Of a stretch of 34,809 bases of DNA, positions 26,734 through 29,431 are shown one piece after another; positions within the stretch are counted from its first letter, which is position 1; each line of letters starts with the position of its first letter. The notes under the pieces are model-generated. The model made no database searches. It was not told the origin of the DNA and saw only the letters and a program-made list of their open reading frames with translations. Origin of the DNA: Candidatus Sulfotelmatobacter sp. (GTDB lineage: Bacteria > Acidobacteriota > Terriglobia > Terriglobales > Acidobacteriaceae); NCBI GenBank assembly GCA_030040965.1, contig JASHOT010000221.1, forward strand, positions 1-34,809, written 5' to 3'. The position numbers and the translations under genes were made by a program.

Positions 26734-28014
26734 ATGTCCGCAACCATGATGACCGTTGCCCTCAGCGAATTGTTAGGCGCCACCGTCTATGACCCGTCTG
26801 GCGCCCCGAGTGGCCGTGTGCGCGAGGTCGCGCTCGCCCCGCAGGAGGACCGTTCGCGCATTGTCTCGCTCATCGTGAAAACTAAAGCCGGCAACCGTGT
26901 GCTGCCCTCTGCCGCGGTTTCCGCGATCAACGGTGGTGTCAAGGCCGCAACTCCCGCGGGCGAGTGGCCGGCCGCCAACGGCACCGAAGGATTATTTCTG
27001 CTCGAGCGCGACCTGCTCGATCAGCAGGTAATCGATATCAACGGGCGTAAAGTCGTTCGCGTCAACGATGTCGAGCTCAACATCGACACTCCCAAAACCG
27101 ACGCCCAAAAAGAGGGAACGCAGCCCCGCACCGTCGTGCGCGTTCATTCGGTCGATGTCGGCGCGCGCGGCGCCGTTCGCCGCCTGCTCCGGGGCGTAGC
27201 TCCGAAATCGGCCCTGCATGCCCTGCTTGGCCGGATTCCTCCTCGCACCATCCCCTGGAACTTCGTCGACGTCATCGAGACCGACCCCGCCCGCCGCGTC
27301 AAGCTGAAGATTTCGCACGAAGGCCTGGCCAAACTGCACCCGGCCGATATCGCCGACATTGTCGAAGAACTGGCTCCCGACGAGCGCCAGGCGGTTTTCC
27401 AGACGCTCGACGAAGAGACTGCTGCCGAGGCGCTCGAAGAAGTCGAACCAAAAGTCCAGAAGGCGATCGTCGAGTCACTGGATTCCGAGCGCGCCGCCGA
27501 GATCGTCGAAGAAATGAATCCCGACGCGGCCGCCGACCTGCTCGCCGACCTGCCTGAGGAACGCACCGAACAGATCCTCGTGCAGATGGAGCCCGAGGCC
27601 CAGCAGGACGTCGTGGAACTGCTCGAGCACAAGGAAGAAACCGCTGCCGGGCGCATGACTACGGAATTTCTAGCGCTGCCTGTGACTGCAACCGTGCAGA
27701 ATGCGATCGATTCCATGCGCGAGTTCGAAGGCGGAGTCGAGGCCGTCAGCACTATCTATCTCGTCGACTCCCACGGTACCCTAGTCGGCGCCGTGCCTTT
27801 AGCCCGCATCGTCCTTGTCCCTCCCACCGCGCCCATGCTTTCGTTGACGCAGGAGCCTCTGATCCTCTCGCATGAGGGCGTCGCCGACAACGAAGTCGCC
27901 GAACTATTCGATAAATACAACCTGCTCACTCTTCCCGTTGTCGACGAGCACAATAAGCTGACCGGCATCATCACCTCCGATGACGTAATCAGCATGCTGC
28001 GTGCCAAGCTGTAG
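26734..28014 (+). CDS. Soluble PRC-barrel / MgtE-N / CBS-pair protein, putative Mg2+ sensor
   Basis: A 426-residue protein with no membrane segment. Residues ~5-150 form PRC-barrel-like modules (LLGATVYDPSGAPSGRVREV, then LLDQQVIDINGRKVVRVNDV). Residues ~190-305 are an MgtE intracellular N domain, with HPADIADIVEELAPDERQAV and repeated acidic helices such as VEEMNPDAAADLLADLPEER. Residues ~310-426 are a CBS pair (TIYLVDSHGTLVGAVPLARI, LPVVDEHNKLTGIITSDDVI). In MgtE these two domains bind Mg2+ and gate the attached channel. Here the channel is absent and an Nramp-type transporter is encoded next (154-nt gap, same strand), so it may act in trans on that transporter (inference). The start could also be ATG 26746. 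Domain calls are strong; the role is a proposal. Confidence 0.88.
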   Translation: MSATMMTVALSELLGATVYDPSGAPSGRVREVALAPQEDRSRIVSLIVKTKAGNRVLPSAAVSAINGGVKAATPAGEWPAANGTEGLFLLERDLLDQQVIDINGRKVVRVNDVELNIDTPKTDAQKEGTQPRTVVRVHSVDVGARGAVRRLLRGVAPKSALHALLGRIPPRTIPWNFVDVIETDPARRVKLKISHEGLAKLHPADIADIVEELAPDERQAVFQTLDEETAAEALEEVEPKVQKAIVESLDSERAAEIVEEMNPDAAADLLADLPEERTEQILVQMEPEAQQDVVELLEHKEETAAGRMTTEFLALPVTATVQNAIDSMREFEGGVEAVSTIYLVDSHGTLVGAVPLARIVLVPPTAPMLSLTQEPLILSHEGVADNEVAELFDKYNLLTLPVVDEHNKLTGIITSDDVISMLRAKL

Positions 28015-28168
28015 GATCACTCCGATACCGCGGCCCCGCACAAATCGCTGGCAGGTGATTCCAAAAATAAACTTCAATCCTGCACTTTTTCTTTGGCCAG
28101 ATTCGCACTCTGCATTTATCCTGTGGCGTCGTCGATCGTAATTCGCTCCATTTTTATGTCTGTGAAAA

Positions 28169-29431
28169 GTGCGCATGAGGTTCCTGAGACGCTGGAAGAC
28201 CCGGATTCTGCTGTTCTTCGCCGTCGTCGGCCCGGGTTTTATTACCGCAAACGTCGACAATGATGCCGGCGGCATCCTCGTCTATTCCCAGGCCGGCGCT
28301 CAATTTGGACATCTTCTGCTGTGGACCATGATCCCGACCACGATCGCGCTGATCGTGGTGCAGGAAATGTGTGCCCGCATGGGCGCCGTGACCGGCAAGG
28401 GTCTGAGCGACCTAATCCGCGAAGAATTTGGCCTGCGCATCACTTTTCTCATGATGATCGGGATTCTGGTCATCAACTTCGGCAACGTCGTCACCGAGTT
28501 CATCGGCATCGCCACCAGCCTTGAACTCTTCGGACTGCCCCGCTTTGCTACCGTGCCAATCTGCGCCCTCATCGTGTGGGTCATCGTGGTTTACGGTCAG
28601 TACAAGAGCGTCGAAAAAATTTTCCTCGCCGCGTCTTTTTTCTATATAACGTACATTTTTGCCGGCGCGCTCGCCCATCCTGCCTGGATCGATGCCACCA
28701 AAGCCACCTTCGTCCCGCCAAAGCTAAGCGCCTTTCGCGATCAGGCTTACCTGTTCATGGTGATCGGTGTCGTCGGCACAACCATCGCTCCCTGGATGCA
28801 GTTCTACCTGCAATCTTCCATTGTTGAGAAAGGCGTGACTAAACGCGGCTACAATGCCTCGCGTCTCGATGTGATTGTGGGCTGCATTTTCACCGACGTC
28901 GTGGCCTGGTTCATCATCGTTGCTTGCGCCGCCACGCTTTGGATTCACGGCTTCCGCGACATTAAATTTGCGGCCGATGCGGCACAGGCTCTCAAACCAC
29001 TGGCGGGCGATTACGCGTACATCCTATTCGCCGTTGGATTATTCAATGCATCCCTTTTTGCCGCGTCGATCCTTCCGCTCTCCACGGCCTACACCGTTTG
29101 CGAAGGATTGGGCTTCGAGTCCGGCGTCGGCTTGAAATTCAGCGAGGCGCCGTTCTTTTACTGGCTCTACACCCTGCTCATCGTCGCCGGCGGCGCGCTT
29201 GTTCTCGTGATCCCCGCCCCCAGACTGGTCCAAATCGTTCTCTGGTCGCAGGTGCTCAATGGCGTTGTTCTGCCCTTCGTACTCATCTTCATGCTGCTGT
29301 TGATCAACAAGAAGGAATTGATGGGTGAGTACACCAACACGCGCTTGTTCAACGTGATCGCGTGGGTCACGACGGTTGTTGTCATCGGACTTTCAGTCGC
29401 GTGGATGTTTGGCTCATTCATCGGCGGATGA
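28169..29431 (+). CDS. Nramp-family transporter with Mg-type (NRMT-like) motifs
   Basis: A 420-residue polytopic membrane protein of the Nramp (SLC11) fold with about 11 hydrophobic helices. Family anchors are VVGPGFITANVDNDAGG in TM1 and the TM6 segment VVGTTIAPWMQFYLQSS. In Mn/Fe Nramps the ligands are DPGN (TM1) and MPH (TM6). Here they are DAGG and APW: the Asp is kept, but the Asn and the Met and His are replaced. As I recall, this is how Nramp-related magnesium transporters differ, by losing the soft Met ligand. With the MgtE-N/CBS protein next door, Mg2+ uptake is the best guess; Mn2+ cannot be ruled out from sequence. The start is GTG 28169 or ATG 28175; neither has a good ribosome-binding site. 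Confidence 0.9.
   Translation: MRMRFLRRWKTRILLFFAVVGPGFITANVDNDAGGILVYSQAGAQFGHLLLWTMIPTTIALIVVQEMCARMGAVTGKGLSDLIREEFGLRITFLMMIGILVINFGNVVTEFIGIATSLELFGLPRFATVPICALIVWVIVVYGQYKSVEKIFLAASFFYITYIFAGALAHPAWIDATKATFVPPKLSAFRDQAYLFMVIGVVGTTIAPWMQFYLQSSIVEKGVTKRGYNASRLDVIVGCIFTDVVAWFIIVACAATLWIHGFRDIKFAADAAQALKPLAGDYAYILFAVGLFNASLFAASILPLSTAYTVCEGLGFESGVGLKFSEAPFFYWLYTLLIVAGGALVLVIPAPRLVQIVLWSQVLNGVVLPFVLIFMLLLINKKELMGEYTNTRLFNVIAWVTTVVVIGLSVAWMFGSFIGG

Follow-up and report, generated by a model that had tools for sequence, protein, structure and literature searches.

A channel-less MgtE-type sensor paired with an NRMT-type Nramp transporter in Acidobacteriota: a candidate two-piece system for Mg2+ import

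We analysed a 34,809-nucleotide stretch of DNA (hereafter the window) from Candidatus Sulfotelmatobacter sp., a member of the phylum Acidobacteriota (assembly GCA_030040965.1, contig JASHOT010000221.1). Two neighbouring genes on its forward strand are the subject of this report. The first encodes a soluble protein with the Mg2+-sensing domains of MgtE and without the MgtE channel, and the second encodes a transporter of the NRMT type within the Nramp family. The features of the locus and the basis on which each was called are as follows.

26734–28014, forward strand: channel-less MgtE-type sensor gene, 426 amino acids, PRC–MgtE_N–CBS pair (reading frame and Pfam)
26755–26955, forward strand: PRC-barrel domain, amino acids 8–74 (PF05239, E = 1.6e-7, two stretches)
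27334–27639, forward strand: MgtE_N domain, amino acids 201–302, carrying the equivalents of E59 (Mg7), D91 (Mg4) and D95 (Mg6) of Thermus thermophilus MgtE (PF03448, E = 2e-28, and alignment)
27892–27999, forward strand: best CBS stretch, amino acids 387–422, carrying the D247 (Mg4) equivalent (PF00571, E = 3e-13, two stretches, and alignment)
28015–28168, forward strand: 154-nucleotide gap between sensor and NRMT (reading frames, Rfam, consensus-site search)
28169–29431, forward strand: NRMT-type Nramp transporter gene, 420 amino acids (reading frame, PF01566 at 318 bits, PDB match, motifs and tree)
28262–28273, forward strand: metal-site motif D-A-G-G (DxxG) in transmembrane helix 1, TM1 (alignment; motif definition from PMC8806188)
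28778–28789, forward strand: metal-site motif T-T-I-A (TxxA) in transmembrane helix 6, TM6 (alignment; motif definition from PMC8806188)

A free MgtE sensor beside an NRMT gene

The sensor protein has the MgtE_N and CBS domains that form the cytoplasmic part of an MgtE channel. A Pfam search found no PF01769 channel domain in it, and the protein ends directly after the second CBS domain, at the point where the plug helix of MgtE would start. It scored 149 bits against the NCBI MgtE equivalog TIGR00400, under the cut-off of 232.75. The reading frame is open from 26617, that is, 5' of the ATG at 26734. When we aligned the sensor to T. thermophilus MgtE (TtMgtE; 2yvy, 2zy9), taking the site positions from PMC5882242 and PMC5529423, the two proteins shared the N domain, the CBS pair and the acidic residues equivalent to E59 (Mg7), D91 and D247 (Mg4) and D95 (Mg6). 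By contrast with TtMgtE, the window sensor has no channel and no plug helix, has lost the Mg5 and ATP residues, and has gained a PRC barrel. Across 93 sensors, D95 was present in 90, E or D at position 59 in 83, D or E at 247 in 71 and D91 in 58, and 50 kept all four acids.

The NRMT gene begins with GTG at 28169 or, equally, with ATG at 28175. By far the closest solved structure to its product is EleNRMT of Eggerthella lenta (7qia, 358 bits), with DraNramp at 101 bits. In the available passages of PMC8806188, NRMTs are marked by DxxG in TM1 and TxxA/T in TM6, which replace DxxN and A/CxxM. The window protein has DAGG and TTIA at these places, and it lacks the Asn and Met that serve as ligands in transition-metal Nramps. 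The same DxxG/TxxA site and the same fold are found in EleNRMT (7qia, 7qic, 7qji, 7qjj). The proton-path histidines of TM6b (H and H in DraNramp) align with W and N in EleNRMT and with W and L in the window protein. No partner of EleNRMT is named in the passages of PMC8806188 that were found, and the word 'CBS' is absent from its main text, whereas the window NRMT has the sensor as a neighbour. On sequence evidence, the window protein is predicted to be an Nramp-fold importer with its metal site switched to Mg2+, and it is probably the main Mg2+ importer of the bacterium.

The original prediction, made from the letters of the DNA, had described a free MgtE-N/CBS protein with PRC modules and no channel, followed on the same strand after 154 nucleotides by an Nramp relative lacking the transition-metal ligands; the domain, motif and structure matches and the gene coordinates bear out this description. 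The 154-nucleotide gap gave no Rfam match, and no site resembling a promoter or terminator consensus was found in it.

To place the transporter, we used a midpoint-rooted tree of 51 rows, in which some long branches were flagged. The window NRMT paired with the NRMT of a second genome of the same genus (G084; support 100/99). It lay within a 27-row clade (100/99) that also holds the NRMTs associated with M-box Mg2+ riboswitches in Geobacteraceae, Peptococcaceae bacterium CEB3 and L182, and within a 36-row group that includes EleNRMT (96/94), away from the MntH-type Nramps. A second sensor-associated lineage (L054, L056, L058, L060 and L063), in which the sensor gene lies downstream of the Nramp gene, grouped with L070, apart from the EleNRMT clade; the sensor is thus associated with two Nramp lineages. 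L070 is the second Nramp of the window genome (G000, contig C47). Its metal site reads DGPS and ATVT, resembling neither MntH nor NRMT, and we found no sensor next to it.

The pairing and the feedback hypothesis are not new, as both have been in print since 2014. According to the available passages of Shin et al. (PMC4072509), who named NrmT, most NrmT genes adjoin a homologue of the MgtE cytoplasmic domain, and cytoplasmic feedback or chaperone activity was proposed for this MgtE-like partner. The window has just such an arrangement, an nrmT gene next to one for a homologue of the MgtE cytoplasmic domain. The mgtE-like/nrmT pairs of Clostridium acetobutylicum (Ca_c0685 operon) and Acidobacterium capsulatum (Acp2976/Acp2977) in that paper consist of the same kinds of gene with the same proposed feedback role, and the A. 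capsulatum pair has the gene order of the window and likewise no M-box. In those passages the partner is described only as homologous to the N-terminal cytoplasmic domain of MgtE, to which the window adds the PRC barrel and the site residues. No later paper on the MgtE-like partner was found by title or start of abstract in the part of the open-licence literature that was listed. New here are the co-occurrence counts, including unlinked genes, the depletion of MgtE channels in genomes with the pair, the PRC barrel, the site residues, a further riboswitch on the sensor gene, and a window genome in which no other known importer family scored over the cut-off.

Co-occurrence of sensor and NRMT in two phyla

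We tabulated both genes in 119 genomes of the window's phylum and in a second sample of 149, drawn from the phylum to which Peptococcaceae bacterium CEB3 (G119) belongs. Some Nramp match was present in 59 of the 119. Within this first sample, a class of sensor-type NRMTs was defined by motif (DxxG, TxxA/T/S, a TM3 Glu and a TM10 Gln), a definition that was fixed after the sensor results had been seen. This class was found in 32 of 119 genomes, one of which (G114) has E in place of the TM1 Asp, and a channel-less MgtE_N gene was present in all 32. In 25 of them (the window and 24 fetched loci) the two genes share a strand and are no more than about 6 kb apart, and in the other 7 the sensor lay elsewhere in the genome. 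If the Nramps of G095 and G009, which the motif leaves out (209 and 204 bits; DPSG, no TM3 Glu, no TM10 Gln), are counted, co-occurrence becomes 32 of 34. The 119 genomes contain 36 channel-less MgtE_N places in all, and four of these are exceptions, in genomes without a sensor-type NRMT: those of G012 and G090 lie at contig ends, that of G054 is beside a full MgtE, and that of G080 is in a run-on frame. The G080 frame (L228; 519 amino acids) joins MgtE_N to a prolyl oligopeptidase-like end, as read from the letters, in a genome that is 75% complete, and may be an assembly join.

Similar to the first sample, the second phylum, in which the NRMT class was set at 430 bits or more to A1, had an NRMT in 15 of 149 genomes (one broken by a stop) and a sensor in all 15, adjacent in 14. 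Conversely, an MgtE_N match of at least 57 bits without an MgtE channel was found in 14 genomes, all of them NRMT carriers. Five more genomes (G149, G161, G166, G180 and G203) have Nramps of 206–232 bits with GPGT or GTGT at the DxxG position and no adjacent sensor; counting them gives 15 of 20. The TM3 Glu is not universal among the NRMTs of this phylum. Among 80 named loci, the sensor was within the flank in 42 (41 upstream, 1 downstream); at several of the remaining 38 the flanks are short. Six whole genomes drawn from those 38 all contained a sensor, in two of them about 4 kb from the NRMT by coordinates, beyond the flank, and in the remaining four far away or on another contig.

Both genes were on one strand in all 86 fetched loci that hold the two, and on opposite strands in none (0/86), which argues for a pairing beyond chance. 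Dropping 6 duplicates of the same locus left 80 distinct loci, among which named and unnamed records may still overlap; the sensor came first in 69 and the NRMT in 11. It is extremely improbable that the two are chance neighbours with no functional link. The 154-nucleotide gap and the splitting of the pair in G084 would fit such an explanation, but co-occurrence in both phyla, the shared strand and the presence of M-boxes on unlinked genes (see below) speak against it, and we rejected it as contradicted by the co-occurrence counts. These counts indicate that the sensor is a constant partner of one NRMT class and not a passenger. It is well supported that sensor and NRMT are a functional pair, conserved across phyla and co-occurring even if unlinked. 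The original prediction had called for a survey of channel-less sensors near NRMT genes and named restriction of the pair to this genome as a result that would count against it; instead, the survey found the pair across phyla, as separate genes.

Several loci departed from this layout. In L209 (127–1504), an intact NRMT gene stands beside a sensor split into two overlapping frames (225 and 279 amino acids), as reported for the Ca_c0685 operon. In G084 (L232:878–3520), the sensor gene is directly downstream, on the same strand, of a gene for an MgtC/DUF4010 membrane protein (Pfam). MgtC has been linked to Mg2+ stress. Genomes of the Terriglobus and Granulicella types have a glycosyltransferase-like gene between sensor and NRMT, or beside the sensor where the NRMT is elsewhere. 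It is absent from the window, and we therefore did not count it as a third part of the system. Its positions are the following.

L159:2958–4007: glycosyltransferase-like gene (PF13524, for this one, the gene tested)
L039:5726–6841: glycosyltransferase-like gene
L043:8348–9403: glycosyltransferase-like gene
L076:46–1089: glycosyltransferase-like gene

Acidobacteriota-like NRMT and sensor genes also occur in records titled Rhodanobacteraceae and Bifidobacterium breve (L145, L157), titles that may be wrong. Among viral contigs, 18 stretches matched a search pattern and none encodes a relative.

Mg2+ importers, M-boxes and the Mn2+ alternative

The genomes that carry the pair tend to lack the MgtE channel. 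Counting matches over the cut-off, PF01769 was present in 4 of 32 genomes with a sensor-type NRMT and in 66 of 87 others of the window's phylum (Fisher 3.7e-10), and in 1 of 15 NRMT carriers and 93 of 134 others of the second phylum (Fisher 2.9e-6). CorA and the MgtE channel were both absent over the cut-off in 15 of 119 genomes, and 11 of these 15 have the pair (Fisher 7.5e-5). The genomes are not phylogenetically independent, so all these Fisher values overstate the evidence. The window genome (93.6% complete), one of these pair carriers, had no PF01769 or CorA match over the cut-off and no MgtA over the cut-off either (best MgtA match 52 bits), and G084 (100% complete) likewise had no CorA, MgtE channel or MgtA over the cut-off.

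A second line of evidence came from M-boxes, which we searched for in 37 sources (L185 and L198 being one place). In Peptococcaceae bacterium CEB3, whose two genes are on different contigs, an M-box lies upstream of each (NRMT, L198:3011–3177; sensor, L195:564–730). Linked pairs with an M-box upstream were also found at L186 and L187, both from Geobacteraceae, and at L182, L208 and L211. The sensors at the M-box loci L182, L186, L187, L195, L208 and L211 retain all four acids. Absence of an M-box from most sources is uninformative, because many have little upstream sequence.

The main alternative to a role in Mg2+ uptake is that the acidobacterial NRMT is chiefly a Mn2+ importer and that the MgtE-like protein reacts to Mn2+ or adjusts its uptake. 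We consider this unlikely, although the one experiment found on an acidobacterial member points that way. In the available passages of PMC4072509, full rescue by A. capsulatum NrmT was seen for a Mn2+ defect; a Mg2+ defect was rescued weakly, at low mM Mg2+, and co-expression of the MgtE-like protein did not improve this rescue. The window gave no Rfam match and so no M-box, an element that some members of the two-gene system of Shin et al. have upstream, and a search of 16 acidobacterial loci (15 and L036) likewise found none. Residues 91 and 247, which form Mg4, have been lost from the sensors of Granulicella rosea, Terriglobus roseus and Acidobacterium sp. S8. On the other side, the window sensor retains the Mg4 residues that those relatives lost, the window genome lacks CorA, MgtE channel and MgtA matches over the cut-off, MgtE channels are depleted where the pair occurs, and the window NRMT nests among M-box-regulated NRMTs. 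EleNRMT transports both Mn2+ and Mg2+ (PMC8806188, available passages), so an NRMT that rescues a Mn2+ defect may transport Mg2+ as well. One possible explanation for the missing Mg2+ phenotype of the A. capsulatum pair is that this species, whose place is inferred, may share the branch that lost Mg4.

A possible trans-acting Mg2+ brake

We lean slightly towards a reading in which the NRMT is a Mg2+ importer and the detached MgtE sensor is its trans-acting Mg2+ brake. The NRMT would import Mg2+ into the cytosol, the free sensor would bind intracellular Mg2+ at the interface of the N and CBS domains (Mg4, Mg6 and Mg7), and at high cytosolic Mg2+ the sensor would act in trans to slow the NRMT. 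Both the contact and the direction of control are inferred here. If the sensor is a brake, the NRMT should work alone, and the failure of an added partner to improve rescue would follow. According to the same passages of PMC4072509, clostridial NrmTs rescued Mg2+ transport without the partner.

We folded sensor and NRMT with AlphaFold2 as a single chain, with natural stop codons read through, in two models. The sensor-first model (L122; 98 rows, 20 read through) reached a predicted local distance difference test score (pLDDT) of 89.7 and a predicted template modelling score (pTM) of 0.72. In Foldseek searches, it matched EleNRMT with a template modelling (TM) score of 0.91 and the Mg2+-bound cytosolic domain of TtMgtE with a score of 0.81, each normalised by target. 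The NRMT-first model (L182; 66 rows, 3 read through) reached a pLDDT of 88.1 and a pTM of 0.56. A pTM of about 0.53 is what we calculate for two halves that each fold well but have no defined position relative to each other, so we read 0.56 as no placement and 0.72 as only a hint. These models suggest that both halves fold well, with a hint of mutual placement in the L122 model and none in the L182 model.

A different possibility is that the sensor acts in Mg2+ homeostasis without touching the NRMT, as a Mg2+ buffer, as a metal chaperone or by controlling another target. This is rather unlikely in our estimate. It would suit the many genomes in which the genes are apart, the G084 sensor that adjoins an MgtC/DUF4010 gene, the Clostridium NRMTs that function without a sensor (PMC4072509, available passages) and the pTM of 0.56 in one topology. 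However, a sensor accompanies the NRMT, linked or not, in 32 of 32 and 15 of 15 carrier genomes, and the sensor-first model reached a pTM of 0.72 with 20 read-through rows. Transport needs no brake, so function without a sensor is expected under the brake reading as well.

Several further observations weigh against the reading of a Mg2+ importer with a brake. In the available passages of PMC5882242, closure of TtMgtE required each of Mg2–Mg7, and the window sensor has lost Mg5 (N at D226, S at D250) and, ending before the plug, Mg2 and Mg3; its ATP residues Y170, R187, D188, N203 and F227 have become T, A, R, Q and L. The NRMT-first model gave no confident placement. In G084, whose NRMT is 82% identical to that of the window, the two genes are on different contigs. 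No natural fusion of sensor and NRMT was found among the 268 genomes, as judged by the open-frame lengths of NRMT matches, which in the NRMT class are 550 amino acids at most. CorA is about as common in genomes with the pair (20 of 32) as in the others (55 of 87) and so shows no depletion. Of the 11 genomes that have the pair but neither CorA nor an MgtE channel, G098 alone has an MgtA over the cut-off, and P-type ATPases of 267–314 bits, below the cut-off of 611, are present in G007, G029 and G055. Terriglobus roseus (G122) has an MgtA over the cut-off as well.

The original prediction had proposed that a Mg2+-sensing gate was reused in trans on an unrelated transporter fold, to be examined by modelling the complex. 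Its functional part stands, given the co-occurrence and the M-boxes on unlinked genes. Physical gating fared less well: the modelled halves fold well, and their placement is unsupported in L182 (pTM 0.56) and a hint in L122 (pTM 0.72). In A. capsulatum, co-expression of the pair gave no better rescue and the transporter behaved as a Mn2+ transporter (PMC4072509, available passages). We regard as possible, and hold only tentatively, the fuller proposal that a LeuT-fold secondary transporter is controlled in trans by a detached MgtE gate and that, in this lineage of Acidobacteriota, the two-piece system replaced MgtE, CorA and MgtA as the sole Mg2+ entry.

What the MgtE-like neighbour of NrmT does was not settled by the 2014 study, and the counts reported here bear on this question. 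They also single out organisms whose sole Mg2+ importer may be the pair. Gating of the NRMT by the sensor, if it occurs, would mean that a regulatory domain described for one channel fold acts on an unrelated transporter fold.

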